In this document: in pieces, positions 17,201-37,236 of the stretch
Numbering within the stretch: position 1 is the first letter of the stretch
Layout of the letters: each line of letters begins with the position of its first letter
Assembly (NCBI GenBank): GCA_000158155.1
Contig: DS999405.1
Coordinates: 1,787,738-1,851,737, forward strand
Direction of reading: 5' to 3'
DNA: 64,000 nt
Source of the DNA: a gamma proteobacterium NOR5-3
GTDB lineage: Bacteria; Pseudomonadota; Gammaproteobacteria; Pseudomonadales; Halieaceae
Translations under genes and position numbers: made by a program
Notes under the pieces: generated by a model
The model's database searches: none
What the model was told of the DNA's origin: nothing
What the model saw: only the letters and a program-made list of their open reading frames with translations

Positions 17201-20200
17201 ACCGGATCAAAGGTGACGGCCACGTCTTCGTCGGTCGAACCGGTATCGTTGACCGCATCAGGACCCGGGTTAGTCACCGTCCAGTCAAAGCTTTCGCTGA
17301 CCGGCGTGTTCACGCCATCGGTCGCGGTCACGGTGACGTTGTAAACACCGGCCGTACCGCCGATCGACGCACTATTATCGATAGTGCCGCTGATGATGCC
17401 AGTCGCGGGATCAATACTTAGACCTGCAGGCAAGCCTGTGGCGCTGTACGTCAGCGTACTATCCACATCACTGAAGTTACCGCTTACATCCAAAGACACA
17501 ACATCCGCGTCATCGCTGGACTGCGGAGCCAGGTCCACGGATACCGGCGGATCATTCACCGTATCTACCGTTAGGTTAACGACTGCCGTATCGGTACCAC
17601 CCTCACCATCGGTGATCGTGTACTCAAAGCTCGCCGGACCGTTGTAGTTGGCCGTCGGCGTGAACGTTATCGTGCCGTCCAGATTAAGAGCCACCGTGCC
17701 GTTGCTCGGTGAACCTACGCTGGTAATCGTCAGATCATCGCCATCCGGATCCGTGTCGTTGCCTAACAAATCCACCGGATCAAAGGTGACAGCCACGTCT
17801 TCGTCGGTCGAGCCCGTATCGTTGACCGCATCCGGACCCGGGTTGGTCACCGTCCAGTCAAAGCTCTCGCTGACGGAGGGATTTACGCCATCCGTCGCTG
17901 TGACCGTAACGGTGTAGACACCGGCGGTACCGCCTTGTGAGGCGCTGCTATCAATCGTGCCGCTGATGACTCCAGTAGCGGAATCAATGCTTAGACCCGC
18001 AGGCAAACCTGTGGCGCTGTACGTCAGCGTGCTGTCCACGTCATTAAAGGCCGCGGAGGCATCAACTGGCGTAATGGCATCGGCATCGTCATTGGCTTGC
18101 GTACCCAGTGGTGCAATGACCACCGGGGGATCATTCACCGTATCTACAGTCAGGTTAACCGTCGCGGTATCCGTTCCACCTTCACCATCACTGATCGTAT
18201 AGGTAAAGCTATCGGGTCCGTTGTAGTTCAGGTTCGGCGTGTACTTCAGCGTACCGTCACCGTTGTCGGTGACCGTGCCGTTATCAGGCTGTGTGAAGCT
18301 GGCGATGCTCAGCGCATCGCCGTCGACATCGCTGTCATTCGCAAGCACCGTGATATTCACGGCCGTATCTTCGGCGGCACCCTGGGTATCGTCTACCGCA
18401 TCCGGACCAGGATTGGTCACCGTCCAGTCAAAGCTCTCGCTGACCGGCGTGTTCACGCCATCGGTCGCAGTCACGGTGACGTTGTAAACACCGGCACTAC
18501 CCCCGATCGAAGCACTATTATCGATTGTGCCGCTGATGATGCCAGTCGCGGGATCAATACTCAGACCCGCAGGCAGACCTGTGGCGCTGTACGTCAGTGT
18601 GCTGTCCACATCTGTGAAATTACCGCTGACATCCAGAGACACAACATCCGCGTCATCGCTGGACTGCGGAGCCAGATCCACCGATACCGGCGGATCATTG
18701 TCAGGAGTGACCGTTAGATTTACGGTCGCGGTATCGGTACCACCCTCACCATCACTGATCGTATAGGTGAAGCTATCGGGTCCGTTGTAGTTCGCGTTCG
18801 GCGTGTACCTCAGCGTACCGTCACCGTTGTCGGTGACCGTGCCATTCGTCGGCTGCGTGAAGCTGACAATGCTTAGTGTATCGCCATCAACATCCGAGTC
18901 ATTTGCTAGCACCGTGATATCCACGGCTGTATCTTCGGCAGCACCCTGGGTATCGTCCACGGCATCCGGACTCGGGTTGGTCACCGTCCAGTCAAAGCTC
19001 TCGCTGACCGGCGTATTTACACCATCCGTGGCTGTCACGGTGACGGTATAAACACCGCCGCTCAACTGAGATGCACTGTTATCAATGGTGCCGCTAATGA
19101 CACCGGTAGCAGGATCAATACTCAATCCCACAGGTAAACCCGTTGCGCTGTAAGTCAGCGTGCTGTCCACATCCGTGAAATTACCGCTGACATCGAGTGA
19201 CACAAGGTCGGCGTCTTCACTGGACTGCGGACCGAGGTCAACCGATACCGGCGGATTGTTTACAGGCTCAGGTTCAGGCTCTGGCGGAGCAATAGGTGGC
19301 GGTGTTGTGCTCTCTTCGCCCACGGTAATAAACACCTCAGTGGTGTCCGTATTGCCGCTCTCATCCGTTACGGTGTACTCAAAGCTGTCCTCACCACTGA
19401 ATCCATCATTGGGTTCATAGACAAAGCTACCATCGGGATTAAGCACAACGGTGCCATTGGCCGGCGTCGTATTACCGACAACCGAAAGTGTCTCGGATTC
19501 GGGATCACTGTCGTTGTCCAGCACATTTCCAGTTACAGCAGTGGCAAAGTCTCCAAAATAAGCATCAGACTCGGCCACCGGCGCAAGATTTTCTGCTGGC
19601 GACTCTGGCTCTGGCGCTGGCGCTGGCTCTGGCGCTGGCGCTGGCGGTGGCGGTGGAGCAATAACGATAGGTGCCTCGGGCGTTGCGGTGCCTGAATCTT
19701 CGCCACCGGTATCCTCTGGAGAATCGTCCAGCAACAACTGCAGGTCATTGTCGACAGCAGGGTCATCCGGGTTGATGCGATCTGCGTCGGTGCCTGCAGC
19801 CAGCGTCGCAAACTCCGGAAGATCAAAACCAATACGTCCCAAGCGCACAAAGGAGCTACCCTCGTCCTGACCCGGGCCGCCCGCTGCGGGTGCTTCCAGG
19901 CTGTCTAACAGATCACCACCGCTCTCCAGAGCGTCAACGATCGTTGCAATGGTGTCATCGACCACAGACGCATCTGCCGCGGTGTCCCGCGTTTCGGCCA
20001 GCAACTCTCCGGTAACCAGCAGCTCCCGGCCACCGGGCATCACAATAGACGGCGCGTCTGCGACCGCAACTTCAAGAACAGCACCGGGCTCAGTGACCAG
20101 CACTTCTCCCTGAAAAATTGCATCGCCAATTTGCAGCTGCCGCTGGGTACCGTCCTCCGCGCGAGCGAAGGCAATACCCTGAAGCTTTTCTACTGTGCCG

Positions 20201-20214
20201 ATTTGCTGGGCCAT
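8287..20214 (-). CDS. giant LapA-type repetitive adhesin, type I secreted
   Basis: The 3975-residue protein has several parts. Residues 1-145 form a retention module with candidate LapG sites PAAG (109-112) and LAAG (138-141). A Pro/Glu-rich linker lies around 180-215, and a first cadherin-like repeat spans about 212-305. Then come 15 composite units of about 193 residues, each a dystroglycan-type Ig/cadherin module (YSATGLPAGLSIDPATG) plus a tandem-95 cadherin-like module (DGEGGTDTA). A unique C-terminal part follows, with EF-hand-like Asp-rich stretches (DLDNDGVEYL, DTNQNNQLDPGD, DADSDGVTDEGE). The uncleaved secretion signal should lie at the very end. No nonapeptide RTX array was found. 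It would be exported by the ABC/HlyD/TolC proteins nearby, held in the outer-membrane channel, and released by LapG. It probably mediates biofilm adhesion. The high Asp content suggests calcium binding. Confidence 0.92.
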   Translation of the reverse strand: MAQQIGTVEKLQGIAFARAEDGTQRQLQIGDAIFQGEVLVTEPGAVLEVAVADAPSIVMPGGRELLVTGELLAETRDTAADASVVDDTIATIVDALESGGDLLDSLEAPAAGGPGQDEGSSFVRLGRIGFDLPEFATLAAGTDADRINPDDPAVDNDLQLLLDDSPEDTGGEDSGTATPEAPIVIAPPPPPAPAPEPAPAPEPESPAENLAPVAESDAYFGDFATAVTGNVLDNDSDPESETLSVVGNTTPANGTVVLNPDGSFVYEPNDGFSGEDSFEYTVTDESGNTDTTEVFITVGEESTTPPPIAPPEPEPEPVNNPPVSVDLGPQSSEDADLVSLDVSGNFTDVDSTLTYSATGLPVGLSIDPATGVISGTIDNSASQLSGGVYTVTVTATDGVNTPVSESFDWTVTNPSPDAVDDTQGAAEDTAVDITVLANDSDVDGDTLSIVSFTQPTNGTVTDNGDGTLRYTPNANYNGPDSFTYTISDGEGGTDTATVNLTVTPDNDPPVSVDLAPQSSDDADVVSLDVSGNFTDVDSTLTYSATGLPAGLSIDPATGIISGTIDNSASIGGSAGVYNVTVTATDGVNTPVSESFDWTVTNPGPDAVDDTQGAAEDTAVNITVLANDSDVDGDALSIASFTQPDNGTVTDNGDGTLKYTPNLNYNGPDSFTYTISDGEGGTDTATVNLTVDTVNDPPVVIAPLGTQANDDADAITPVDASAAFNDVDSTLTYSATGLPAGLSIDSATGVISGTIDSSASQGGTAGVYTVTVTATDGVNPSVSESFDWTVTNPGPDAVNDTGSTDEDVAVTFDPVDLLGNDTDPDGDDLTITSVGSPSNGTVALNLDGTITFTPTANYNGPASFEYTITDGEGGTDTAVVNLTVDTVNDPPVSVDLAPQSSDDADVVSLDVSGNFSDVDSTLTYSATGLPAGLSIDPATGIISGTIDNSASIGGTAGVYNVTVTATDGVNTPVSESFDWTVTNPGPDAVNDTGSTDEDVAVTFDPVDLLGNDTDPDGDDLTITSVGSPSNGTVVLNLDGTITFTPTANYNGPASFEYTISDGEGGTDTAIVNLTVDAVNDPPVVIAPLGAQANDDADAITPVDASAAFNDVDSTLTYSATGLPAGLSIDPATGIISGTIDNSASIGGTAGVYTVTVSATDGVNPSVSESFDWTVTNPGPDAVNDTGSTDEDVAVTFEAADLLGNDTDPDGDDLTITGVGTATNGTVVLNLDGTITFTPTANYNGPASFEYTISDGEGGTDTAIVNLTVNAVNDPPVVIAPLGAQANDDADAITPVDASTAFNDVDSTLTYSATGLPAGLSIDPATGIISGTIDNSASQGGTAGVYNVTVTATDGVNTPVSESFDWTVTNPGPDAVNDTGSTTEDVAVTFDPVDLLGNDTDPDGDDLTITSVGSPSNGTVVLNLDGTITFTPTANYNGPASFEYTISDGEGGTDTAIVNLTVDAVNDPPVVIAPLGAQANDDADAITPVDASAAFNDVDSTLTYSATGLPAGLSIDPATGIISGTIDNSASIGGTAGVYTVTVSATDGVNPSVSESFDWTVTNPGPDAVNDTGSTDEDVAVTFDPVDLLGNDTDPDGDDLTITSVGSPSNGTVVLNLDGTITFTPTANYNGPASFEYTISDGEGGTDTAIVNLTVNAVNDPPVVIAPLGAQTNDDADAITPIDGSAAFNDVDSTLTYSATGLPAGLSIDPATGVISGTIDNSASQGGTAGVYTVKVTATDGVNTPVSESFDWTVTNPGPDAVNDTGSTDEDVAVTFDPVDLLGNDTDPDGDDLTITSVGSPSNGTVVLNLDGTITFTPTANYNGPASFEYTISDGEGGTDTAVVNLTVDAVNDPPVVIAPLGAQTNDDADAITPVDASTAFNDVDSTLTYSATGLPAGLSIDPATGIISGTIDNSASQGGTAGVYNVTVTATDGVNTPVSESFDWTVTNPGPDAVDDTQGAAEDTAVNITVLANDSDVDGDALSIASFTQPDNGTVTDNGDGTLKYTPNLNYNGPDSFTYTISDGEGGTDTATVNLTVDAVNDPPVVIAPLGAQTNDDADAITPIDGSAAFNDVDSTLTYSATGLPAGLSIDPATGVISGTIDNSASQGGTAGVYTVTVTATDGVNPSVSESFDWTVTNPGPDAVNDTGSTDEDVAVTFDPVDLLGNDTDPDGDDLTITSVGSPSNGTVALNLDGTITFTPTANYNGPASFEYTITDGEGGTDTAVVNLTVDTVNDPPVSVDLAPQSSDDADVVSLDVSGNFSDVDSTLTYSATGLPAGLSIDPATGIISGTIDNSASIGGTAGVYNVTVTATDGVNTPVSESFDWTVTNPGPDAVNDTGSTDEDVAVTFDPVDLLGNDTDPDGDDLTITSVGSPSNGTVVLNLDGTITFTPTANYNGPASFEYTISDGEGGTDTAVVNLTVDAVNDPPVVIAPLGAQTNDDADAITPVDASTAFNDVDSTLTYSATGLPAGLSIDPATGIISGTIDNSASIGGTAGVYNVTVTATDGVNTPVSESFNWTVTNPGPDAVDDTGVTDEDVAVIFTPADLLTNDSDPDSDDLTITGVDAATNGTVVLNANGTVTFTPTANYNGPASFEYTISDGEGGTDTATVNLTVNAVNDPPVVIAPLGAQTNDDADAITPIDASAAFNDVDSTLTYSATGLPAGLSIDPATGIISGTIDNSASIGGTAGVYNVTVTATDGVNTPVSESFDWTVTNPGPDAVDDTGSTTEDVAVTFDPVDLLGNDTDPDGDDLTITSVGSPSNGTVVLNLDGTITFTPTANYNGPASFEYTISDGEGGTDTAIVNLTVDTVNDPPVVIAPLGAQANDDADAITPVDASAAFNDVDSTLTYSATGLPAGLSIDPATGIISGTIDNSASIGGSAGVYNVTVTATDGVNTPVSESFDWTVTNPGPDAVNDTGSTDEDVAVTFEAADLLGNDTDPDGDDLTITGVGTATNGTVVLNLDGTITFTPTANYNGPASFEYTISDGEGGTDTAIVNLTVNAVNDPPVVIAPLGAQTNDDADAITPIDGSAAFNDVDSTLTYSATGLPAGLSIDPATGVISGTIDNSASQGGTAGVYTVKVTATDGVNTPVSESFDWTVTNPGPDAVNDTGSTDEDVAVTFEAADLLGNDTDPDGDDLTITGVGTATNGTVVLNLDGTITFTPTANYNGPASFEYTISDGEGGTDTAVVNLTVDAVNDPPESDAKKLTVAEDTSDNAVPTLTGSDSDGTVDNFVITGLPTNGTLLLSGAAVTVGQSIPVADAGNLTYTPNANYFGDDSFSYASVDDDGAQDGTPASVAITVTDVAEPSPLVVANPDALEVSDATLADGIANNETASVDLASFVSGGSGNYSYTLIGSGVTDDGAFTVDGSVVSFELTDPYGHQENSDIATNAYSVTVEVSDGISSETITVPVTIFDDRPEIGDVAFGDLAPDGSVTAQDLDSAFGGDGPGEIDFTKTSGAVIDTSGNQIYFDGQPLNWALDGGALVGQTFSGVAAITVSINENAGTYALSIADGTFYTDGTFADLNLNGLSGGNDDLYAVQIADGVGVLIDSSGGKSSTTNTSKANNQGFVGVGGNWVDAGSTENVTFMFFDSINAPLDGSGFDESAKGTIISDALRAGVTAFSANIDLQGNPSSAVGIPITVESIEGNSGTLTVSVAGDGTFSVSSLDVAWAQGAPNQPIYSVTFAASTVDYRIAVGQVSQVLPAAEIPISIPLSITDSDQDTDAGSISGSIVQATAPITLDLDNDGVEYLSRDAGVVFTDQATGESVNTAWVASDDGLLVIDANQSGTVDESREYVFTEWSENAETDMAAVAEVFDTNQNNQLDPGDDAWSQFAVWQDADSDGVTDEGELRSLDELGVDSIDLTYTEGSTSGTAADGDVTIHGQSAVNWTDGSVTTAEDASFSIDVGDVLVDQGTIDLPMLEPEASELVVDAQKGDVAAPATPAADTAQDLAAMEIDLMLNMTTDDKPESGSVD
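13021..13880 (-). repeat. higher-order duplicate block, copy 1
   Basis: This block is nearly identical to 17059-17918, at an offset of 4038 bases (seven units). Both share rare variants, for example the 573-base unit encoding SLDVSGNFSDVD in place of the usual segment. The match weakens after about 13900 and resumes around 14190-14450 against 18228-18488. Confidence 0.8.
17059..17918 (-). repeat. higher-order duplicate block, copy 2
   Basis: Partner of 13021-13880. I saw only a single-base difference in the parts I compared side by side. It indicates a multi-unit duplication inside the adhesin gene rather than independent single-unit expansion. Confidence 0.8.
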
Positions 20215-20417: not shown

Positions 20418-21029
20418 CTAGTGAATCGGCAGGCGGTTCACATACAGCGCCAGCTGCACGCGGTCGCGCAGGCCCAGCTTGTCAAAAATCGAGGTGAGGT
20501 TAGCCTTGACCGTGCGTTCACTGACGCCAAGCGCCTCGGCAAGCTCCCGGTTGTTGTAACCGCGGCCCACCAGCAATGCGACTTCCTCCTCCCGAGGCGT
20601 CAGCCCCTCAAAGTGTCGGGGCGAGCGATCGGCGGACTGTGCATCAACACGCTTACCCAACTCCGAAATGCGCTGGAGCAAATCCCGAGGCATCCATAAG
20701 CCACCGGCGCTCACCACCTCGGCCACCTCCACAAGCTGTTCGGGCACCGCCTCGGCGTGGCAGTAGCCCCGCACGCCCATGGACAAAAGCTGGAACGCCT
20801 CGCCCTCGCCAGGCATGGAGCTGAGCGCTACCAGACTGACGCCGCGAGCCACGGCCTGCTCTATCTCCAAACGATTTGCAGAGACCGGAAAAGTATCCAG
20901 ATCCAGAAAAACCAGCGGATGTGCCCCAACCCCCACCTCACGGATATCGGTGGACAGTTGCAGACCCGCAAAGGCCGCGCGCCATCGCGCGCGGGCGGTC
21001 CCCATGGCTGAAACAAAGATCGGATTCAT
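20418..21029 (-). CDS. LuxR-family DNA-binding regulator with degenerate receiver
   Basis: The 203-residue protein has a C-terminal LuxR-type helix-turn-helix (about residues 138-200), with LTPREEEVALLVGRGYNN and SERTVKANLTSIFDKLG. The N-terminal 120 residues have a receiver-like layout (LVFLDLD as beta-3). They lack the acidic pair near the N-terminus and the conserved Lys; the usual GYLxK position reads GYCHAEA. Phosphorylation is therefore doubtful. The gene lies between the adhesin gene and the hlyD-like gene, overlapping the latter by one base, so it is part of the secretion operon. It is the best candidate for a local regulator of the adhesin. Confidence 0.85.
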   Translation of the reverse strand: MNPIFVSAMGTARARWRAAFAGLQLSTDIREVGVGAHPLVFLDLDTFPVSANRLEIEQAVARGVSLVALSSMPGEGEAFQLLSMGVRGYCHAEAVPEQLVEVAEVVSAGGLWMPRDLLQRISELGKRVDAQSADRSPRHFEGLTPREEEVALLVGRGYNNRELAEALGVSERTVKANLTSIFDKLGLRDRVQLALYVNRLPIH

Positions 21030-22372
21030 TAGCGCTCTGACAAGGCTCGTTGATGGGCACGCAGCACCGGCTTCATGAGATAAGCCAGCACCGTCTTTTT
21101 GCCGGTAATCACGTCTACCTCGACAGTCATCCCCGGAATAATCGGGCTATCCGGCCCAAAGTCCGATTGCTCGGTGCGCACCAATACTTCATAAAAGGCA
21201 TTGCCCTCTTCATCCAGCACCGTATCCGCGGCAATCTGCTCTACCCGTCCTTCAAGGCCACCGTAAACCACAAAATCGTAAGCGGTCACTTTGACGTTGG
21301 CGCGCTGGCCTGCAGCGATAAACGCGATGTCCTGGGGCCTCACGCGCACTTCCAGCAGGAGGGTATCGTCAGCGGGAATCAGCTCGACAATGTCCCGGCC
21401 AGGCAACACTACGCCGCCCACGGTATTAAAGTACAGCTGATTGATGGTGCCGCTGACCGGCGCCGTCAGATTGGTCTGGCTCACCCGGTCCGATAAACCC
21501 GCCGCCGCCTCGGTCAGGGCATTAATGCGCGTCAGGGTGTCGGTCAGCTGCTCTCTGGCCTCGTTAGAAAACTCCAGTTGCACCGCGTTCACCCTGCCCT
21601 GCGCCTCGGCAATGGCGGCGCTGACGCGCTTGATTTGCGCCTGGGTTTGCGCGAGCTCGCCGCCGGCACGGTTCACCTCCCGCTGCAAGCGCAGAATCTC
21701 TACCTGAGATACCGCGCCAGATGCCACCATGGGCTCGGTCACTGTCAGCTCCTGTTGCGCAAGTCTCTGCTCGGTGGCGAGTTGTGATTCCCGCGCTTTA
21801 AGCTCCGACAGCTCTTCGCTGCGCTGCTCCAACTGCTGGCGGGCAATATCCTGTTCTACGCGCAGAGCCGTCACCGAAGACTCGTGCAGCTCACGCTCCT
21901 GATCGGCCACATCGGGCAGTGCAGTGAGCATCTGGGGTGTGGGAGCAAACTCCGCGTTATCGACCATGGCGCGCAGCCGCGCCGCTTTAATGGTCAATCC
22001 CTGCAGCTCTACCCGGTTCTCGCCAAGGGTTGCCTGAGAGCGCGTCTGATCCAGACGCAGCAGCAAATCGCCGGCCTTTACGGTGTCGCCCTCACGAATC
22101 AAAATCTCGCGAATCACACCACCATCCTGAGACCCCACCACCTGCACCTGCTGCGAGGGAATCACTTTGCCCTGCCCGCGAGTCACGGTATCGACCTCGG
22201 CAAAGGTGGCCCAAACGATCAACAGCACCACCACCAACGCGATGCCGTAAAGCATGCCCCGGGCGCGCAGGGGCTCCTGCTCGATGGCCGCGCGATCAGC
22301 AAGATCACTCCAGCCCGCGCTGACCTTTGCGTGACTCGTGCGTACTACCGGTGTTGGTTGCGACTCGCTCAT
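21029..22372 (-). CDS. HlyD-family type I secretion periplasmic adaptor (LapC role)
   Basis: The 447-residue protein has one N-terminal TM helix (about residues 43-63, MLYGIALVVVLLIVWATFA). A biotinyl-lipoyl-like half motif, a long coiled-coil hairpin (about 120-300) and a second lipoyl/beta-barrel region (SGTINQLYFNTVGGVV) follow. It should bridge the ABC exporter in the inner membrane and the TolC-like channel. Its start overlaps the end of the ABC gene by four bases, showing translational coupling. Length and domain order are normal for the family. Confidence 0.93.
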   Translation of the reverse strand: MSESQPTPVVRTSHAKVSAGWSDLADRAAIEQEPLRARGMLYGIALVVVLLIVWATFAEVDTVTRGQGKVIPSQQVQVVGSQDGGVIREILIREGDTVKAGDLLLRLDQTRSQATLGENRVELQGLTIKAARLRAMVDNAEFAPTPQMLTALPDVADQERELHESSVTALRVEQDIARQQLEQRSEELSELKARESQLATEQRLAQQELTVTEPMVASGAVSQVEILRLQREVNRAGGELAQTQAQIKRVSAAIAEAQGRVNAVQLEFSNEAREQLTDTLTRINALTEAAAGLSDRVSQTNLTAPVSGTINQLYFNTVGGVVLPGRDIVELIPADDTLLLEVRVRPQDIAFIAAGQRANVKVTAYDFVVYGGLEGRVEQIAADTVLDEEGNAFYEVLVRTEQSDFGPDSPIIPGMTVEVDVITGKKTVLAYLMKPVLRAHQRALSER

Positions 22373-24495
22373 GATTGCACTTTACCAATGCGGCCCTGCT
22401 GCAGCGCCGCTACAACACTGTCGCGAGGACCGTCGGCGACGATGCGCCCGCCGTCCACCACAATAATGCGATCTACCAAGGCCAGCAGCGCATTACGATG
22501 CGTCACCACCACCATGGTGCGACCCTCGGCGTAGCTCTTGAGATTGTCGATCACAGTCTTCTCGGTGGAGTTGTCCATGGAACCCGTGGGTTCGTCCATG
22601 AGCAGAATGTCGGGCTCGTGTACCAGCGCCCGGGCCAAAGCGATGCAGCGTTTTTGTCCGCCAGATACGGAGTCACCGCGCTCACTGATGTGCATATCAA
22701 AACCACTGGGATGGCGGTTTACAAAGTCTGCCAGCCCCGCCCGCTCTACCGCCTTTAACAACGCGGCATCACTGATGCCACGATGGGCCAGAGTGAGGTT
22801 ATCGCGCAGCGTGCCCTGAAACAGCGTAACGTCCTGGGGCACATAACCCACCGCGCGGCGATACTCCCGAGGGTCTAACTGGCGAAGATCGATACCGTCG
22901 ATCAGCACCTCACCCTCAACCGGCTGATACAAACCCATGGCCAGGCGCTGCAGCGTGGTTTTACCGGAGCCAATGCGGCCCAGAATCCCGACGTGCTCGC
23001 CAGCCTTGATCGCAAAGGACATACTCGCCAGGGAGGCCGTCTCGGCTCCCGGGTACGTAAAACCCAGATTCTTGAATTCGATAGCGCCCTCAAAGCGCTC
23101 GCGAGACACATAGGCCCCATCCTTTTTGCCATCCACCGGTTGCTCAAACATGGCATCCAGGGAGCTGAGCGAGATCCGCGCGTTGTGATACTGCGTGATC
23201 AAACCGGCCAGCTGCCCAAACGGTGCCACGGAGCGCCCCGCCAACATGCTGCAGGCAATGAGCCCGCCCATGGTCATCTCGCCGGCGGATATAAGGTACA
23301 CACCCACGATAATCACCGACACGGAGATAAGCTGCTGACACCAGGCCGTGGCCTGAGTCACCGAGGATGAGGTGAGCCGCATACGCACACCCACTCCGGC
23401 CAAAAAGCGCGTGGCCTCTTCCCACTTGCGCTGCACAATGGACTCCGCGCCCATGGCTTTAAGCGTCTCTACACTGGAAAGCGCCTCGATGAGCGTCGCG
23501 TTACGCATGGCGCCCGCCTGATAAGAGGTCTCGGTGAGCTTTTGGAGCCTTGGCCGCATAAACAGCGCAAACCCCACCAGCAGAACGATGCCGCAAAGCA
23601 CGGGAATCAACACCGGCCAGGCAATCCAGCCAATCACCACAAAGAACACCACGGCAAAAGGTAAGTCGATGACGCTGTTGATGGTCGCCGAGGCAATAAA
23701 ATCCCGCAGCGTCTCAAAAGAGCGCAGGTTCACAGCAAAAGAACCCACGGATGACGCCCGGTGCTCCAGACGAATCCCCAGGGCCTGCTCCATGATGCGC
23801 GCGGATAAGTCGACATCTACCCGCTTGCTGGCCAGATCCACAAAGTAGCTGCGCAGAGTGCGCAGAATCACGTCGCCAATGATGATGACGAACATACCGG
23901 CGGCGAGCATCCACAAGGTCTCGAAGGCCGCATTGGGCACCACACGGTCGTAGACGTTCATGGTGAATAAGGGCAGCGCCAGGGCAAAGACGTTAATAAA
24001 GAAGGCGGCAAACAGCACGTCGCGGTAGACGCCGGTATTGGCGCGCATGGCGGTCCAGAACCAGTGGCCCTCGCGATGTTTAGGCTGGTACCCGGCGGTC
24101 TTGGCATCGAGTTTAAAGCGCGGCCGGGCGAGTAACACATGGCCGGTAGCGCGGGCGGTGAGTGCTTCAACAGACTCACTCACCTGGTTATCAATAGCCT
24201 GTGGGTAGATGACCCGGGCTGTGCCGTTTTCGCCGGAACCCAGATACACGCAGGCGCTGTCTTCTAAAAGAACAATCGCCGGGCACACTGCGTCAGGAAT
24301 TTGATCGAGGGTTAGGTGCGATAAACGCGTGTTGAGACCCGCCCGGTCCGCTGCGCGAAGGAGTAAATCCGGTGTAAGCCCCTCATCGGCGACGGGCAAC
24401 GCGGCAGTGAGTGACTCCGCGGTTGCCGCCAGCTGGTGGTAATGCGCCACGTACAAGAGGCAAGCCACCAATGGGTCGTGTTGGGGGGTGGTCAT
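22369..24495 (-). CDS. type I secretion ABC permease/ATPase (LapB role)
   Basis: The 708-residue exporter has an N-terminal C39-peptidase-like domain (about residues 1-135) that lacks the catalytic Cys motif. This is as expected for exporters of adhesins without a cleaved leader. Six TM helices (about 160-440) are followed by an ATPase domain with Walker A GRIGSGKTT, signature SVSGGQKR, Walker B ILLMDEPTGS and H-loop VVTHR. It powers export of the giant adhesin. It is the first gene of the minus-strand operon ABC-HlyD-regulator-adhesin. No clear promoter was recognised in the 266-base gap upstream. Confidence 0.93.
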   Translation of the reverse strand: MTTPQHDPLVACLLYVAHYHQLAATAESLTAALPVADEGLTPDLLLRAADRAGLNTRLSHLTLDQIPDAVCPAIVLLEDSACVYLGSGENGTARVIYPQAIDNQVSESVEALTARATGHVLLARPRFKLDAKTAGYQPKHREGHWFWTAMRANTGVYRDVLFAAFFINVFALALPLFTMNVYDRVVPNAAFETLWMLAAGMFVIIIGDVILRTLRSYFVDLASKRVDVDLSARIMEQALGIRLEHRASSVGSFAVNLRSFETLRDFIASATINSVIDLPFAVVFFVVIGWIAWPVLIPVLCGIVLLVGFALFMRPRLQKLTETSYQAGAMRNATLIEALSSVETLKAMGAESIVQRKWEEATRFLAGVGVRMRLTSSSVTQATAWCQQLISVSVIIVGVYLISAGEMTMGGLIACSMLAGRSVAPFGQLAGLITQYHNARISLSSLDAMFEQPVDGKKDGAYVSRERFEGAIEFKNLGFTYPGAETASLASMSFAIKAGEHVGILGRIGSGKTTLQRLAMGLYQPVEGEVLIDGIDLRQLDPREYRRAVGYVPQDVTLFQGTLRDNLTLAHRGISDAALLKAVERAGLADFVNRHPSGFDMHISERGDSVSGGQKRCIALARALVHEPDILLMDEPTGSMDNSTEKTVIDNLKSYAEGRTMVVVTHRNALLALVDRIIVVDGGRIVADGPRDSVVAALQQGRIGKVQS

Positions 24496-24761: not shown

Positions 24762-25517
24762 TTACTTCAGTTGTCGCTTAGCACCCGACAACACCAACAA
24801 ACCCAAAACAAACAGAGCCAGCGATGCTGGAGCAGGAACTTGCTCGGCTCGTTGCACAACTCGTATCGTCGTTGCTCCTACCTCGGCCGGCCCGTTAGCA
24901 CCGTCCCTGAATGCCGTCAGCTTTATATCGAACACCCCATCCGCAAACTTGTCGAAAAGAGGAATGGCTAAGAAACCATAATTCTGAGAGCCCTGAGCCA
25001 CAGTGCTATAATAAGTAGACGCTGTGGACGATCCACCACCGTTTGCTGTCGCCAAAGTTCCGAAGATATTGTCAAAAGTCAAAAGCGGGAGCGTTACATA
25101 GCTCGTCGCCTCGGATTGATCGACGTCTAAGGACAAGCTGAAAGACAGCGCGCCCCCCGAGAGAAAGTCTTGAGGCGAATCCGTAAGGTCAGAAACTACA
25201 GACCACTCGAAATTCCAATCTGCTTTACCATCCCCACCACAGTCACCCGCTGAACGAACATCAAATGTGTAGACGCCATCCGGAGAACCAGGGGCGCCAA
25301 AGGTGTTTGAAGGCGCGCAATCGTCCCCAAGGCGATCTTTCGCCCGAAGACCAAGCTCAATCTGTTGATCATTAAATACGGTGAACCCGCCGTTGCCATT
25401 ACCTGAGCCGAAAATGATTTCGGGCGTAACGTCCATGAGGGCAGCTGTCGCACCTAACGACGTAAAACGCAGTGAAACAATCGCAGAGGTAACTACCCGC
25501 TTTGCACTCAAAAACAT
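24762..25517 (-). CDS. PEP-CTERM sorting-domain protein
   Basis: The product is 251 residues from the chosen ATG at 25517. That start gives a plausible signal peptide (MFLSAKRVVTSAIVSLRF...), and a GGAG lies upstream; the frame stays open 52 codons further up, without a signal. The C-terminus reads VPAPASLALFVLGLLVLSG followed by AKRQLK, an exosortase-type sorting signal with Ala in place of the classical Glu. The middle part contains two Cys (DDCAPS, AGDCGG) and beta-rich sequence; I do not recognise a family. A sigma-54-type promoter match lies 39-54 bases before the start. Surface sorting by the exosortase at 35.7 kb is inferred. Confidence 0.82.
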   Translation of the reverse strand: MFLSAKRVVTSAIVSLRFTSLGATAALMDVTPEIIFGSGNGNGGFTVFNDQQIELGLRAKDRLGDDCAPSNTFGAPGSPDGVYTFDVRSAGDCGGDGKADWNFEWSVVSDLTDSPQDFLSGGALSFSLSLDVDQSEATSYVTLPLLTFDNIFGTLATANGGGSSTASTYYSTVAQGSQNYGFLAIPLFDKFADGVFDIKLTAFRDGANGPAEVGATTIRVVQRAEQVPAPASLALFVLGLLVLSGAKRQLK

Positions 25518-25555
25518 CTCAACACCACTCCGTAGAAAATTGACATGCAAATACA

Positions 25556-25571
25556 GGCAGATTTCGCGCCA
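25556..25571 (-). promoter_or_regulatory. sigma-54 (-24/-12) promoter match
   Basis: The minus strand reads TGGCGCGAAATCTGCC. This is 9 of 12 consensus positions, with correct GG-N10-GC spacing. Transcription would begin near 25546, about 29 bases before the start of the PEP-CTERM gene. Confidence 0.5.
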
Positions 25572-26025
25572 TGAGCTAAGTGAGTAGTTAAGTCTCTGAT
25601 TTTCATGTTTTATTTTTTTCATTGATAATTGAGATGCACTAATTCTAAATTTTCCTGACACCAAAAACGGCACGAAATCTAGACAAGCTATCTTCTATCA
25701 AAGACGTTATTAACATCCGCTTGAGCGCCTTCTTAATCTTCCGAACGTGGGTGTAAATACAAAAATCAAACCACGGCAAGGCCTGAGAGAACCGTAATAC
25801 GGCTTCTAGGGAATACCCTTACAGATCACTCTGAGTCAGAATTTCCCGAAATTGTTGCAAAAAGGTGACGCGGTACACGAATCTTCCGCCCCGTCGAGAT
25901 TCTTGAGACAAACTTTACTATGCTGTTTGTGATTTTGATCTATTTCCGAGATTGCAATATGACCTGGCCTCACGAGAATAATCAGATCTACAGCAAGCCC
26001 GCGACAGGGACACTCCAATCTAACC
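25572..26025. other. intergenic stretch without recognised gene
   Basis: This A+T-richer gap lies between a leftward PEP-CTERM gene and a rightward gene, so it should hold the promoter of the latter. I found no convincing -35/-10 pair, no terminator and no small coding frame with a ribosome site. Confidence 0.5.
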
Positions 26026-27245: not shown

Positions 27246-28340
27246 TTAGCTCGCCGTTGGCAGCAAATGGGCACGCTGCAACCATTTTCTGCCAAGGTGC
27301 GCTATCAGACGGTGCGGAGGCATTTTAATCGCGTGGCCGCGAATAAAAAGAAACAGCCGAGCTATTGCAGTTCCTCGAACATTGCTCGACGAATGATTGG
27401 GCAAAATAGCGCGATCGAATACGTAACGCATCCACCCCTTAACCGGCGCTATCGGGCCATAACTCTGAAGTCTTGCCCATGCCCTATCGGGGACTTGCTG
27501 CCCTAATTGTCGGCGTAGTTGATCTACCGCGTAAAACAGCGACCTGGCGATATCGAGCTCGATCGCTCGAATCAAAAGCGCCGACCAGTCATCTTCTGTG
27601 ACCACCGCTTCTAAAATCAGCTCTGACAAATCGAACAAATCGCGCATGGCCTTATCGAACTCACCTTCCTGAAAGACATGTACAATCGAGTGCAAGATCA
27701 TATCCAGCGGATGCAGAGTGAACGCACCACTGAAACTCTGAGCAGGCACTGCCCCCTCGAGCAGTTTGTTTGCTGAGGGCTGAATCTTAGACACCTCTGG
27801 AAGAATGTTGTGATGAATATCCAAAAAACTGGCCCGTGATAGGTGCCTCATAGGAGGCAACTCGTGCATCCATTCACGGTAGTACCGCTGGTCATACTCA
27901 TTATTATGCGTCGACATCCAGCCGTGACTCAGCATAGCGAGCTCTACAGCTTCAAGACGGTTCTTGGGCACGAGAATATCGAAGTCTGCGAACACCCGAC
28001 ATCGCGCAGGGGGCAGCTGCGCCGCGACATACGCGGCCCCTTTGAGTAAGATCAGGCGCGTATCAATAGTTTCCAGCGCCTCCTGAATGAGGTGTATTTC
28101 ACTAACGGCTGCGACAGATTGCCGGTCACGCAAGGTGGTTGCGGCATCAAGATGCTTCCGAGCTGGCCCCGGAACGTGCCCCAACATGCCGGCTTCGCTC
28201 AAGTGAACCGCAAGCCTGATAGTCAGAAGGGACACTCGGGCCTGCCTGACCACAAGCTCCCACTGCGCCACAGACAGCGATGGGGCGAGTGTCGGCTCCA
28301 GCAAGACATCTCTAAGTATTGTTGCGTCTGCGATGTTCAC
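27246..28340 (-). CDS. nucleotidyltransferase family protein (HPr-rel-A associated)
   Basis: This 364-residue protein matches the uncharacterised nucleotidyltransferase family (NTP_transf_5 type). ILLKGAAY lies at about residues 97-104 and the metal-binding RVFADFDILV at about 115-124 (Asp119 and Asp121). Histidine-rich segments (FLDIHHNI, HSIVHVFQEGEFD) follow. Members often sit beside HprK-related kinases and PqqD-like proteins, as here. Its start overlaps the kinase stop by four bases (ATGA), so it is the last gene of a coupled operon. The substrate is unknown; transfer of a nucleotide to a protein or small molecule is inferred from the fold. Confidence 0.82.
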   Translation of the reverse strand: MNIADATILRDVLLEPTLAPSLSVAQWELVVRQARVSLLTIRLAVHLSEAGMLGHVPGPARKHLDAATTLRDRQSVAAVSEIHLIQEALETIDTRLILLKGAAYVAAQLPPARCRVFADFDILVPKNRLEAVELAMLSHGWMSTHNNEYDQRYYREWMHELPPMRHLSRASFLDIHHNILPEVSKIQPSANKLLEGAVPAQSFSGAFTLHPLDMILHSIVHVFQEGEFDKAMRDLFDLSELILEAVVTEDDWSALLIRAIELDIARSLFYAVDQLRRQLGQQVPDRAWARLQSYGPIAPVKGWMRYVFDRAILPNHSSSNVRGTAIARLFLFIRGHAIKMPPHRLIAHLGRKWLQRAHLLPTAS

Positions 28341-29260
28341 TGGGGGACCGCTGCGTCATGAGCAAGTGAATCGCAAAACCCGACAATCGAATCCAGATCT
28401 CCATAGCTTGCCGAGTAGCCATCAACCCTATCCACTGCAGCGGTCAATTGATCAAAGCCCTGACGACCCCGAACGCTGTAGTTAAACGCGTTTTTGACCA
28501 GACTGATAAAAACGTCGGCTTTCTCTTCTGCGGTTACTTTCAGGGTCGACCCTGCTGCATACTTTGGAAACACAACCCAGCGTGGCAACACCGGGACTTG
28601 ATCCAGACTGCAACTCACCGCGGTAGGGCAAACGTGCGCAACGGTGCCTTTGGAGGTGTCGTGTACTGGTGACCCCATAAGTGCATCGGGCGCAAAATTT
28701 CTAATAACCTCAATAGATTGGTTCTTCAGACTTACGGGGCGACAAATGGGCAGCACGTTACCCGTCTGTGGCTCAAAAAGGATCAACTCGTCGGACAGCA
28801 ATCGCCAACCCCGCAGCATGAGCGCTGCGCACAACGTGCTCTTTCCTGAGCCTGAGGGGGCAGGCAATAGCAGCGCATGGCCGTTTTTTTCCAGGACAGC
28901 TCCGTGTACCACCAAAAGGAAGTGTGCATGGCTGTACACACACCAGTTCATACCCCACTCAAGGAGCGCCGCCGCCTGATTAATGGGCAAAGGATGAAAA
29001 GGTTCCAAACCGTCCAGATCAAAAACAACCTGCGGTCGATAGAGCCTACGTACGCCCGACACAGGTCGCACTCGCACGTAAAAGTCTACGAAGACAGAGT
29101 TTTCGGCAATCGAGTGATGCTGGTATAGGGTGCTTACGGTCTGCGCAATAACAGGCATCGGTGAGGTTAGCGAAAAAACAACCGGCCCGGTCCGTACCGG
29201 CAGACCACCGCGCTCGATACGGCTCCGTATTTCTCTAACCGATAGATCCCCAACCCTCAC
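28337..29260 (-). CDS. HprK-related kinase A
   Basis: The 307-residue protein has a P-loop APSGSGKST at residues 134-142 and a downstream LLSDELILF. This resembles the C-terminal kinase domain of HPr kinase/phosphorylase without its N-terminal regulatory domain. It matches the HprK-related kinase A family of the HPr-rel-A system. It starts with GTG, overlapping the PqqD-like stop by four bases (GTGA), and overlaps the next gene by four bases. The phosphorylated partner is not known. No HPr gene occurs in the window, so a role in a peptide or protein modification pathway with its three operon partners is inferred. Confidence 0.87.
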   Translation of the reverse strand: MRVGDLSVREIRSRIERGGLPVRTGPVVFSLTSPMPVIAQTVSTLYQHHSIAENSVFVDFYVRVRPVSGVRRLYRPQVVFDLDGLEPFHPLPINQAAALLEWGMNWCVYSHAHFLLVVHGAVLEKNGHALLLPAPSGSGKSTLCAALMLRGWRLLSDELILFEPQTGNVLPICRPVSLKNQSIEVIRNFAPDALMGSPVHDTSKGTVAHVCPTAVSCSLDQVPVLPRWVVFPKYAAGSTLKVTAEEKADVFISLVKNAFNYSVRGRQGFDQLTAAVDRVDGYSASYGDLDSIVGFCDSLAHDAAVPQ

Positions 29261-29532
29261 GAGGCAACAAACTCAATGACATCCAATGCCTCCAGGACGT
29301 CAATGACTTCGTCCCAGGCTTGCTGATCATAGGTAGCGTGTCGTTTCGAAAGCAGTGCCACAGAAACACCAGCTTCGGAGTTAGCGTCGTCTTCCAGGCT
29401 ACTCAGCAATAAACCAGCGGGACCATTTAGTCGATGGGTGTCCCCACTAGCAGGATCAAACAAAACCGCAGCCGAACCCCATGCCCTCCAAACGACATCG
29501 GCGTTGCGTTTTATTAGACGAACCGTGCTTAT
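29257..29532 (-). CDS. PqqD-like peptide chaperone of the HPr-rel-A system
   Basis: The sequence VLFDPASGDTHRLNGPAG followed by a short helical part is typical of the PqqD-like family next to HprK-related kinase A. The only standard start codon, TTG at 29463, would give 68 residues and cut off the conserved N-terminal strand VVWRAWGSAAVLF, which is encoded in frame upstream. The full form would begin at an ATA (29530-29532) that overlaps the upstream TAA as ATAA. That mimics the 4-base ATGA/GTGA overlaps seen at the next two junctions. The 91-residue version is proposed; the start is unproven. PqqD-like proteins bind peptide leaders and present them to modifying enzymes. Confidence 0.75.
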   Translation of the reverse strand: MSTVRLIKRNADVVWRAWGSAAVLFDPASGDTHRLNGPAGLLLSSLEDDANSEAGVSVALLSKRHATYDQQAWDEVIDVLEALDVIEFVAS

Positions 29533-30149
29533 ATCGCTGGTTTTTCGGTAGTGCCGTCGTACTTGTTGTTAGCGGCCTCTAGCGCAGCAGCTACCGTCCC
29601 AATCAGGCCTTCGCCAGCACCGTTAAGCCCACTGTACATGTTCTGCACGTCCGAGGGGGAATAGGCAAACCCACCGTTAGCATTAGTATTAGGGAACGTC
29701 AGCGCATTGAGATATGCACCCGCCACGTGCTTACCGATATTTTTGGGACCCCCGCCGTCTGCGCCGAGGACGTCAGCCAGCGTTTCAGTCTCAAAGAGCT
29801 TGACGTCGATGTACTTCCCCTTGTCCTTAACGCTCACAGTTATGACGCCAAAAACGTCGGCGAACAACGTCGACAGTGTCACACCGATGTAGAGAGGCCA
29901 CTTGGTGGTTTGTGACCCCCACCAGCCTGCCGATATCCCGCAACCAATGTAAGAGTCGTCGCCGGAGAGGTTTGCGGAGGCCAAAGCAGAGTCAGAACAA
30001 ACAGCACCACCGGCCCATACCGGCCTGCTAGACGCCGTGATCAGCACACTAGCCCCACCAACCTGAAGTAACCGACGACGGCGCGCCGACGCCAATTCAC
30101 CCGATTTTTTTAAATCGACGGTCTGTTTTTCTTCACTATCTGGAGTCAT
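29529..30149 (-). CDS. Tat-signal exported protein, candidate partner of the HPr-rel-A genes
   Basis: The 206-residue protein has a twin-arginine signal (ARRRRLLQVGGASVLI, about residues 22-37) with a likely cleavage after VWA (residue 46). The mature part has Cys51 and Cys70 (CSDSALASANLSG, GCGISAGWWGS), followed by Gly/Asn-rich, weakly hydrophobic sequence. I do not recognise a catalytic family. It is the first gene of the four-gene operon and its TAA overlaps the proposed start of the PqqD-like gene. I recall similar Tat-signal proteins beside HPr-rel-A genes elsewhere, but could not check this. It may be the substrate of the modification system (inference). Confidence 0.75.
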   Translation of the reverse strand: MTPDSEEKQTVDLKKSGELASARRRRLLQVGGASVLITASSRPVWAGGAVCSDSALASANLSGDDSYIGCGISAGWWGSQTTKWPLYIGVTLSTLFADVFGVITVSVKDKGKYIDVKLFETETLADVLGADGGGPKNIGKHVAGAYLNALTFPNTNANGGFAYSPSDVQNMYSGLNGAGEGLIGTVAAALEAANNKYDGTTEKPAI

Positions 30150-30512
30150 AGCCTTCTATTCCTATAAAAACGTGGCTTACTTGGCGCCGCTAACACCCTA
30201 TTACTATACAACACCACACGCTGGGGGTACGGCATCGACAAGTGGCAGCCCATGCTGCCTGTGACGCAGTTCACGAATTCACGCTTACCTTACCTGCTAT
30301 TGCACCTGAATTCACTGTCCGCAATTGTCTTTCATTACACGAATGCAAGAATCTAGCCGGCCGCGTGAATAAACCGAAAAACCAGCAAGTTAAAAGACAC
30401 CAAAACGCCTACCTGCGCGACAACGACGAGCAAACCCAATCGCACTGTAAAGTTTACTGACAACCGTAGCCCGCCAATGACTACGTATGAAACATATAGC
30501 GAAAACCCGACC
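30150..30512. other. intergenic stretch between divergent genes
   Basis: This 363-base gap separates the leftward HPr-rel-A operon from the rightward XDP1-like pseudogene. A GG-N10-GC pattern near 30196-30211 on the minus strand fits sigma-54 spacing but not the flanking bases. I found no gene, terminator or RNA structure. Confidence 0.4.
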
Positions 30513-31518: not shown

Positions 31519-31637
31519 GATCTCGATATCAAGACAACCAGCACCCATCAAAAGTAGCGTCAGGTTTCTTTACAAACCGCATTTAGAACGCGCTCTAAAA
31601 AATTATAAGTGCTTGAAATTTATTATTTTTTTTTAGT

Positions 31638-31653
31638 TGGCCCGCGATCTGCT
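31638..31653 (+). promoter_or_regulatory. sigma-54 (-24/-12) promoter match
   Basis: The bases TGGCCCGCGATCTGCT fit 10 of 12 consensus positions with correct GG-N10-GC spacing, followed by TTTA. Transcription would begin near 31664, 36 bases before the PEP-CTERM start. An A+T-rich tract lies directly upstream, where an enhancer-binding protein or IHF could act. Confidence 0.65.
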
Positions 31654-31699
31654 TTTAAAACGACAGATGGTCAAGACACTTCAATACTGGGAGATACAC

Positions 31700-32665
31700 A
31701 TGAAGAAGAACTTTGTAAAGACGATGGCACCTTTCATCGGTTTGTCCGCACTCGCGATGGTGTCAGCGCATACCAACGCTGGAGTTATGGCGACTTCGTA
31801 TCTGAACGTAAGCGCCTTACTGCTAGAAATCGACGTCAACAATGATGGAATTGCTGATCAAGTAAACCCGCTTGACTATGTTTCTATTACTGGTGGGCAA
31901 CGTACAACGCAAACGAACGCTACTCTTCAGGGTGCAAATACAGCGAGCGGCGTTGCTCTTGCGGGAACTCTTGGAACCTCTGACGCAGCATTTTCCTGCC
32001 TGGGCGATTGCTCTGGTGTTTCTGAAAACGGTAACACTTACGATCTAGATACTTTAAAGAACGACATCACTAGCACTTACGCAGTTTCTGATGCTCTGAT
32101 CGAAGGATCAGCTCTCGGAGGCGGAGCAACGGGCCAAACCTACGCTGACACGGCCATGAGCGGCGCTTCCACAACTGGCGGTGGTACAGCTGGTTCAATT
32201 ATCACGAACAACGTTTTCGCTGACCTGCTTATTCAAGTCAACAAGGATTTATTGGGAGAGGACACCATCTCGTTCCGCTTTGTCGCTATCTATGATCTCT
32301 TCGTTGATGCAATCATCAGCGAAGATATTGCTGATGACCCACTCTTAACTGGTTTGGCAAGCGCTTCGGCGTCTTTCAGCCTAGATGTCAATGATGAGTC
32401 CGGCGCCGAGGTGCTGAGTGCAGGCATTGAGGAAACAGACTTTGCGAGAGATCAGCCGGGAAGAGGCAACCAAAATATTTTTGAAGTTGACAATGGCGCA
32501 TTCGTAACGGACTGGTTAGAGGTGAATGACGGCGAATACCAGTTGGAGATACTCCAATCTTCATCTGCTCAGGTCAATTACGTCCCGGCACCAGCCTCTC
32601 TGGCGTTATTCGGTTTGGGCTTGGTTGGACTTGGTGCGGCAGCACGACGCAAGCGCACTGCCTAA
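31700..32665 (+). CDS. PEP-CTERM sorting-domain protein
   Basis: The product is 321 residues from the ATG at 31700, which has GGGAGA seven bases upstream and begins a signal peptide (MKKNFVKTMAPFIGLSALA...). The frame is open further up but has no signal there. The C-terminus is VPAPASLALFGLGLVGLG plus AARRKRTA, an exosortase sorting signal. The body is rich in Asp, Ser, Thr and Ala (LEIDVNNDGIADQVN is calcium-site-like). I do not recognise a domain with certainty. It has its own sigma-54-type promoter and terminator. It is the only intact gene between two pseudogenes. Confidence 0.85.
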   Translation: MKKNFVKTMAPFIGLSALAMVSAHTNAGVMATSYLNVSALLLEIDVNNDGIADQVNPLDYVSITGGQRTTQTNATLQGANTASGVALAGTLGTSDAAFSCLGDCSGVSENGNTYDLDTLKNDITSTYAVSDALIEGSALGGGATGQTYADTAMSGASTTGGGTAGSIITNNVFADLLIQVNKDLLGEDTISFRFVAIYDLFVDAIISEDIADDPLLTGLASASASFSLDVNDESGAEVLSAGIEETDFARDQPGRGNQNIFEVDNGAFVTDWLEVNDGEYQLEILQSSSAQVNYVPAPASLALFGLGLVGLGAAARRKRTA

Positions 32666-35688: not shown

Positions 35689-37236
35689 ATGCTGCAAACA
35701 CTGAGAGATGACTGGGCCAAAGTACCCGCCCTCACGCCACTGCTGGTTATTCTACTGGCGGTACCCGCTGTATTTTACGCGACGACCGCGTCTATGGCTG
35801 CAATCTGGGTAAACAATGAGACCTTTACTCATGGCTTTTTAATACTGCCCATCACCCTGTGGCTCATCTGGGAACAGCGCGAGCGAATTGCATCGACACC
35901 CTTGAATCGTGATATGCGTGCGCTGATTGCACTGGTGCCCACATTGCTGCTTTGGACACTGGCCACACTAATTGATGTCGCGGTGGTACAGCAGCTAGCC
36001 ATGGTTGCACTCGTTCCGCTCACCGTATGGCTGCTTTTGGGTTTACCGCTAGCACTGGCGCTGCTGTTCCCTCTGCTATACCTGTTTTTTGCGGTGCCTC
36101 TGGGCCAGAGTCTCATCCCGCCCATGATGGAGTTCACTGCAGACTTTACCGTTTACATGGTGCAATTCTCCGGAGTCCCCATTTTTAGAGATGGCCTGTC
36201 TTTTCAACTACCCAGTGGTAACTGGTCAGTCGTAGAAGAATGTAGCGGCGTACGCTACCTGATAGCCTCGGCAGCGCTGGGCACCATTTACGCGTACATC
36301 ACGTACGCCTCGCTTAAAAAGCGCGCTGCCTTTATTGCGGCGTCGCTCATCGTGCCCATCATTGCCAATGGCTTTAGGGCCTATGGCATAGTGATGATCG
36401 GGCACTTATCGGGCATGCAATACGCAGTGGGTGCCGACCACCTGCTCTATGGCTGGGTGTTCTTCGGCCTGGTGATTTTCGTGCTGTTCTGGGTAGGCGG
36501 GTTCTGGGCCGACAGCACCGACCCTGCGGCCAAAAGCGTTGAGCAGAACGGGAACCATGGTTCACAAGAAGATAACGATCGTGGTATTTCATCGATTACA
36601 ACTTTTAGCGCAGTAGTGCTCGGCTCACTACTTGTTTTAAATTTAGGCGTGCAGACCCTTGCGGGCCAGCACCCTGACTTGCCAGGCAGCGCGAATCTTG
36701 CGCTGCCGGCCTCAGCCGGCGATTGGATTCTCGACTCCGAACAGTCGTTGTCGACCTGGACTCCGCTTTTTCAGAACCCGGACCTCCAAGCAACAGGCAC
36801 GTACCGAAGAGGCTCCCAAGCGGTGTCCTTGCACATTGGCTACTTCCACAGCCAGCGTCAGGGAGCCGAAGCAGTATCCTCCGTTAATCAACTAACAGAC
36901 CCCTACGGCGGCGATTGGAAGCTCATTGCCAGCCGAGTCGCTAAGGGCTCCAGCTCTGCGGTCAACGAAGCGGAACTTGCGCTAGGGGGTCAAAAGCTCA
37001 TTGTGTGGCAGGCTTACCTAGTCGCTGACCGCCTCATTGCCAACGCGTATCTGGCCAAACTCTACGAAGCCATCGCCCTACTCCAGGGCCGGCGCGAAGG
37101 AGCCTACCTGACGCTGTCTACGCCCTCCGATGCTTCACCATCGGAGCTCCGGCAAAGACTGGACAGTGCATGGCAAGCGTTGACGCCGTCAGTGATGGCC
37201 GGTGTTAACGCGGTACCCAAGCAGTCTGCGCAGTAG
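35689..37236 (+). CDS. xrtA: exosortase A fused to EpsI domain
   Basis: The 515-residue polytopic membrane protein has the exosortase catalytic residues: Cys185 in EECSGVR, Arg230 in NGFRAY and His251 in GADHLLYGW. About eight TM helices cover residues 15-275. Residues from about 305 to 500 form an EpsI-type periplasmic domain (AGDWILDSE ... GTYRRGSQAVSLHIGYF), as is common for XrtA. It is predicted to cut PEP-CTERM proteins at the Pro-x-Pro motif and pass them to the cell surface. The window holds three intact and one broken substrate gene. Its 3' end is 16 bases from the next start. Confidence 0.95.
   Translation: MLQTLRDDWAKVPALTPLLVILLAVPAVFYATTASMAAIWVNNETFTHGFLILPITLWLIWEQRERIASTPLNRDMRALIALVPTLLLWTLATLIDVAVVQQLAMVALVPLTVWLLLGLPLALALLFPLLYLFFAVPLGQSLIPPMMEFTADFTVYMVQFSGVPIFRDGLSFQLPSGNWSVVEECSGVRYLIASAALGTIYAYITYASLKKRAAFIAASLIVPIIANGFRAYGIVMIGHLSGMQYAVGADHLLYGWVFFGLVIFVLFWVGGFWADSTDPAAKSVEQNGNHGSQEDNDRGISSITTFSAVVLGSLLVLNLGVQTLAGQHPDLPGSANLALPASAGDWILDSEQSLSTWTPLFQNPDLQATGTYRRGSQAVSLHIGYFHSQRQGAEAVSSVNQLTDPYGGDWKLIASRVAKGSSSAVNEAELALGGQKLIVWQAYLVADRLIANAYLAKLYEAIALLQGRREGAYLTLSTPSDASPSELRQRLDSAWQALTPSVMAGVNAVPKQSAQ

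Follow-up and report, generated by a model that had tools for sequence, protein, structure and literature searches.

A Tat-signal protein is the probable substrate of the HPr-rel-A operon in gamma proteobacterium NOR5-3

The window analysed here is a 64,000-nucleotide stretch of contig DS999405.1 from the gamma proteobacterium NOR5-3. Between positions 27246 and 30149, on the minus strand, lies a four-gene operon that a first-pass annotation described as an HPr-rel-A system headed by its own possible target, a protein with a twin-arginine translocation (Tat) signal. Open reading frames (ORFs) and family matches bear out the four genes. In order of transcription they encode the Tat-signal protein of 206 amino acids (29529–30149); a PqqD-like protein of 91 amino acids (29257–29532; 41.5 bits to TIGR04353, PqqD_rel_X, cut-off 35); an HprK-related kinase A (28337–29260; 357.7 bits to TIGR04352, cut-off 200); and an NTP_transf_5 nucleotidyltransferase (27246–28340; 151.7 bits to PF14907, cut-off 31.2). 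With the kinase and the PqqD-like protein both above the curated NCBIfam cut-offs, the operon is by annotation an HPr-rel-A system, a set for which the NCBIfam model names specify no substrate. The same four-gene set is found in more than 150 loci, so its occurrence here is not a matter of chance. Comparison of these loci indicates that the Tat protein is very probably the substrate of the modification enzymes encoded beside it.

Tat-signal proteins at HPr-rel-A loci

The survey covered 369 genomes of the class, 41 with a kinase scoring over the TIGR04352 cut-off and 328 without. Full-length homologues of the window's Tat protein, here called type A, were found in 31 of the 41 kinase genomes and in none of the 328 others (Fisher p 9e-37, A1 profile), and all 31 adjoin the kinase. 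At the remaining kinase loci a different Tat-signal protein, type B, occupies the same slot. Within the class, 42 of 42 loci with room for it (L117 is cut by a contig end) have a Tat-signal ORF immediately upstream, as do 24 of 28 loci phylum-wide; for comparison, 30 of the 436 other ORFs of the kinase loci match a lenient Tat pattern. A further, independent collection, in which species are named, gave 75 of 79 – about 74, as the ORF at L270 looks spurious. Because the family members are related, these counts are not independent of one another. The co-occurrence check on which the first-pass annotation had staked its proposed target was thus run and passed, and the Tat protein gains support as the likely target, the modification itself being inferred.

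A single-protein kinase query of genome contigs gave no match, and the independent loci were recovered with an alignment of the nucleotidyltransferase as query. A single-sequence search had hinted that the Tat protein is absent from most close relatives. This was wrong: many of them carry the kinase with divergent Tat proteins, and within the same order an upstream Tat-signal gene is present at 8 of 8 loci, mostly with mature parts unlike that of the window protein (L306 is type A). Three contigs from Planctomycete metagenome-assembled genomes (L254, L257 and L264) also carry the nucleotidyltransferase and the kinase; binning error and transfer are both possible.

Substrate types and kinase clades

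The mature parts of type B proteins range from 12 to 190 amino acids. One precursor of 74 amino acids (L063:7032-7256) has a predicted mature part of only GSACISCNASLI (12 amino acids), and another, at L210, has a core of 20. Since the leader and the gene slot stay constant while the mature part shrinks from about 200 amino acids to 12, the family follows the logic of precursor peptides, as in ribosomally synthesized and post-translationally modified peptides (RiPPs). Mature type B proteins (L187–L213) usually have four cysteines.

Weaker TIGR04352 matches revealed a sister clade of kinases that occur with short Tat peptides (n = 17) of about 57–90 amino acids, up to three per locus. These sister loci (L106–L114) encode a divergent HprK-like kinase, a bona fide PqqD and, where the contig allows, an NTP_transf_5 gene. 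In a tree of the kinases, those of type A, type B and short-peptide loci are separated by two changes, which is the minimum, and none of 200 shuffles gave a value as low. The kinase clades therefore match the type of substrate, and the two evolve in step.

Leader geometry

Leaders were aligned on a P-h-h-h-T-h motif with its proline set as position −13. The motif is present in 31 of 31 type B leaders, 15 of 17 short peptides and 22 of 34 type A leaders, and in none of 29 ordinary Tat signals. In this register the signal-peptidase site is predicted at −1: a small-x-[AG] triplet ends exactly there in all 22 type A leaders with the motif and in 28 of 28 leaders of the independent set, and −1 is alanine in 25 of 31 type B proteins and 14 of 17 short peptides. 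All the short peptides have YxxPx[LVI] inside the hydrophobic region of the Tat signal, with Tyr at −16 and Pro at −13 in 17 of 17; this Tyr/Pro motif is likewise absent from the 29 ordinary Tat signals. Downstream of the predicted cleavage site, Ser is found at +3 in 26 of 31 type B proteins, and most short peptides have Gly-Ser at about +3/+4.

The Tat protein of strain NOR5-3

The window protein has the features expected of a Tat substrate as read from its sequence – a twin-arginine n-region, an uncharged h-region and a small-x-Ala cleavage site. The signal peptide comprises residues 1–46 (30012–30149), with the twin Arg at 24–25 and a predicted cleavage VWA|GG after A46, placed by the small-x-A rule. 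It is followed by a proposed acceptor segment, residues 47–62 (GGAVCSDSALASANLS; 29964–30011), and by a mature domain of the form C-G-x-SPGYW...HxVAAxLNA, residues 70–195 (29565–29942). Within type A (alignment A1, 33 rows), R25, C51, S58, C70 and N148 are invariant, and R24 (at least 90%), S54, N60, G71, G75 and W77 nearly so. The alignment columns of S54 and S58, which lie at +8 and +12 in the window protein, are 97% Ser. Residues 47–62 would be the segment that is modified.

In an AlphaFold2 model residues 73–195 are confidently predicted (predicted local distance difference test, pLDDT, mostly above 90) and the acceptor segment is disordered. The protein has no NCBIfam or Pfam family match, its mature domain has no fold match in the PDB by Foldseek or VIA-align and no sequence match there, and the family search gave no match for a C-terminal PEP-CTERM anchor. 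The type A mature domain also forms the C-terminus of large exported proteins with no link to the kinase. Those copies are without the C-x-S-x-S-G-N-x-S segment, which is therefore specific to the kinase-linked proteins. The large proteins (L119:4726-6153, L120:5920-7812 and L121:3307-7293), with a domain of the form SPGYWK...HxxAAxLNA, had no Pfam family match. A reading of the invariant Cys as a lipoprotein residue was rejected, as it lies at +3 to +5 and not at +1 in most members.

Modification enzymes

The catalytic motifs of both enzymes are intact. In the kinase, H119, GxGKST 137–142 (the Walker A motif, 28835–28852) and S156-D157-E158 are conserved across 42 sequences. The catalytic His, the Walker A motif and Asp align with those of HPr kinase 1jb1, and the second Asp is replaced by Glu. 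In the nucleotidyltransferase, K100-G101, R115, D119/D121 and D174 are invariant in 29 sequences, D119 and D121 forming the DxD catalytic pair (27978–27986). Its model (pLDDT 94.6) matches nucleotidyltransferase folds including MenT1, ANT(2''), LnuA and FKRP. The last of these is a cytidine diphosphate-ribitol-dependent phosphotransferase. Given these matches, transfer of a nucleotidyl or sugar-phosphate group to phosphoserine is structurally plausible as judged from the model.

Comparison with known systems

Two groups of RiPPs are made with a similar set of enzymes. Precursors of the linear polyphosphorylated peptides (LPP) of Bacillota are bound through Y-16, P-13 and V-11 by a RiPP recognition element (RRE), and an enzyme resembling signal peptidase cleaves them after −1; Ser+3 of LppA is (poly)phosphorylated by the HprK-like LppK (PMC13381572). 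Among lasso peptides, PadeK modifies the C-terminal Ser of paeninodin, and a Ser of pseudomycoidin is phosphorylated by PsmK and then hexosylated by PsmN (PMC9266682). The first-pass annotation took the chemistry of the system to be unknown. It is less so, as the same trio phosphorylates serines and decorates them further in both groups (PMC13381572, PMC9266682).

The window operon shares with LPP (lppAKBSDN; Nat Commun 2026, PMC13381572) a discrete RRE, an HprK-like kinase and an NTP transferase, as well as a precursor cut by signal peptidase (predicted here) and a position near polysaccharide loci. The LPP YxxPxV pattern at −16/−13/−11 is present in 17 of 17 of the sister short Tat peptides but not in the window leader. 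LPP also differs in that it belongs to Bacillota, has a 45-amino-acid core with no twin-arginine signal reported (the window protein has 206 amino acids), and uses a dedicated archaeal-type, signal peptidase I-like enzyme and an MsbA-like exporter, neither of which is in the window operon. The ABC exporter encoded at 22369–24495 is not part of the operon but of a type I secretion set.

With phospho-lasso peptides the operon shares an HprK-like kinase that would act on Ser, probable RRE guidance and a nucleotidyltransferase whose homologue is needed to place a hexose on the phosphate. They differ in their C-terminal Ser and the absence of a Tat signal, and the lasso cyclase and B2 protease are absent from the window operon. 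No lasso macrolactam synthetase was found at 44324–46219: the product scores 294 bits against a lasso cyclase cut-off of 525. This asparagine-synthase-like gene resembles the XrtA/PEP-CTERM amidotransferase (TIGR03108, 697 bits, below the cut-off of 817).

Two further systems are less close. Bufferins (MNIO-modified RiPPs, PMC12452194) resemble the proposed system in that the signal peptide possibly serves in precursor recognition as well, with modification in the cytoplasm before export, but they use Sec rather than Tat, a copper-binding, cysteine-derived chemistry and unrelated enzymes. HPr kinase/phosphorylase keeps the same catalytic His, Walker A and Asp, but the window kinase scores 22.7 bits to TIGR00679 against a cut-off of 240 and, besides its second acidic residue, differs in its N-terminal part. 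The window system would work like LPP and phospho-lasso RiPPs, yet is a member of neither. Three features appear to be new: a Tat-exported partner that is constant, a signal peptide that probably acts as recognition leader, and the sister short Tat peptides. In the open-access literature searched (most subscription journals lie outside it) we found no paper on a partnership of Tat proteins with HPr-rel-A, on Tat RiPPs, or on exosortase together with PqqD.

Proposed mechanism and alternatives

From the precedents of LppK in LPP and PsmK/PsmN in lasso peptides, we propose that the operon encodes a substrate together with the enzymes dedicated to tailoring it. Besides directing export, the Tat signal peptide would serve as the leader that the PqqD-like RRE recognizes, and this RRE would present the precursor in the cytoplasm. 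The kinase would then (poly)phosphorylate a Ser just after the cleavage site – S52, S54 or S58, of which S54 or S58 is favoured – and the nucleotidyltransferase would extend the phosphoserine with a nucleotide or a sugar phosphate. Tat would export the product, signal peptidase I would cut it, and its site of action would be the cell surface, probably in concert with the exosortase/exopolysaccharide (EPS) system. Taken as a whole we regard this as the best explanation and a fairly likely one. Its parts are of unequal strength: that the kinase acts on an N-terminal serine of the Tat protein is evenly poised, and that the nucleotidyltransferase acts on the resulting phosphoserine is more tentative.

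Several observations weigh against the proposal. LppN had no detectable effect in the published test. Seven kinase loci were found without an upstream Tat ORF (L200, L202, L203, L209, L241, L256 and L292); their substrates may be encoded elsewhere. The Pro motif is found in only about two-thirds of type A leaders. In the window leader −13 is Ser34, a position occupied by Pro or Gly in most relatives, and there is no Tyr at −16. The window PqqD-like protein falls below the PF05402 cut-off and so is a weak RRE. The case for docking in the LPP mode is weakened for the window operon by these missing residues together with the weak RRE. The control set of Tat signals is small (29), and the length of the Tat h-region alone may favour a Pro near −13. 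The distance of the putative acceptor Ser also varies: it is +3 in type B and +4 in short peptides, and in type A it ranges from about +4 to +12. Type B proteins have a second candidate acceptor site, a C-terminal C-x-x-S-hydrophobic (SCWxSF-like) motif in 28 of 31.

The alternatives fare less well. Tat exports folded, often cofactor-loaded proteins, and the kinase and nucleotidyltransferase might instead build a covalent prosthetic group, for example Ser-phosphate-nucleotide, on an enzyme that is exported folded and loaded, comparable to ApbE flavinylation or metalloenzymes, with the PqqD-like protein acting on the signal peptide as a chaperone that proofreads. The conserved folded domain of type A with its invariant C51, C70 and N148, the intact nucleotidyltransferase active site and the suitability of Tat for such cargo would fit. 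Against this, the mature domains differ between types, down to 12 amino acids – too short for an enzyme – and no known enzyme fold was found for the Tat domain. We consider this unlikely.

Equally unlikely, in our judgement, is that the trio produces or controls something different, for example by phosphorylating or nucleotidylating an EPS precursor or an unlinked peptide, with the Tat protein as an exported partner or binding protein. The strong link of kinase genomes to exosortase (below) and the presence of the mature domain in large exported proteins with no tie to the kinase favour such a role. It is opposed by the constancy of the Tat leader beside a variable mature part, by the sister system, which has peptides only, and by the trio acting on peptides wherever it has been tested (PMC13381572, PMC9266682). 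Improbable, finally, is phosphorylation at the C-terminus, with the N-terminal serines kept for folding or another reason: the type B C-terminal motif and the C-terminal target of PadeK suggest it, but type A, the window's own type, and the short peptides have no conserved C-terminal Ser, and LppK targets Ser+3.

Operon layout and gene calls

The first-pass annotation had reported four-base overlaps at every junction. All three are present (ATAA, GTGA and GTGA, in gene order), with the qualification that the first, which includes the TAA stop of the Tat gene, requires the PqqD-like gene to start at ATA (29532–29530). The first ordinary in-frame start codon is a TTG at 29463, the use of which would cost 23 residues. 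In the nearest relative (L036) a GTG occupies the homologous position, which makes the ATA start plausible. The kinase and nucleotidyltransferase genes both start with GTG. The operon stands alone, between a divergent gene that starts at 30487 and a convergent gene that ends at 26988. Kinase and nucleotidyltransferase are each present in one copy in the genome, which also encodes TatC.

Genomic neighbourhood

The operon lies among PEP-CTERM genes, as had been claimed: PEP-CTERM proteins are encoded at 24762–25673 and 31637–32665. It is 7.4 kb from the exosortase gene xrtA (35689–37236) and an EPS locus that encodes, besides XrtA, glycosyltransferases, a FemAB-like protein, a PEP_O_lig-type ligase homologue and a flippase. 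Of the 41 kinase genomes, 38 have an exosortase, against 89 of the 328 others (p 1.6e-16), and when kinase and exosortase share a contig, no more than 110 kb separates them in 13 of 16 cases. LPP and paeninodin clusters likewise adjoin polysaccharide loci (PMC13381572). Because of the exosortase association, the EPS neighbourhood and this parallel, the Tat protein is likely to act at the surface or in the EPS.

Elsewhere in the window an ORF of 3975 amino acids (8287–20214) precedes genes for a LuxR-type regulator, HlyD and a type I secretion ABC exporter (20418–24495). We weighed this system as a possible dedicated exporter and set the idea aside, as it forms a separate set with its HlyD and LuxR-type regulator and the Tat signal is complete.

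Significance

HPr-rel-A has been a named system without a substrate, as far as found in the literature, and the Tat protein can now be named as its constant partner. A predicted acceptor segment together with a precedent for the chemistry makes the hypothesis directly testable. If it is true, phosphoserine RiPP chemistry would extend from peptides of Bacillota to Tat-exported peptides and proteins of Pseudomonadota, the use of Tat – export after folding and modification – would be explained, and there would be a clue to how proteins are linked to polysaccharide in exosortase bacteria. A broader possibility, which we put forward as speculative, is that Tat-exported phospho-RiPPs and phospho-proteins are widespread in proteobacteria, with the Tat signal as RRE leader so that one signal serves both modification and export. 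The nucleotidyltransferase might then couple the N-terminal phosphoserine to a nucleotide or sugar through a phosphodiester or pyrophosphate bond, which could attach a surface protein to the polysaccharide associated with exosortase.

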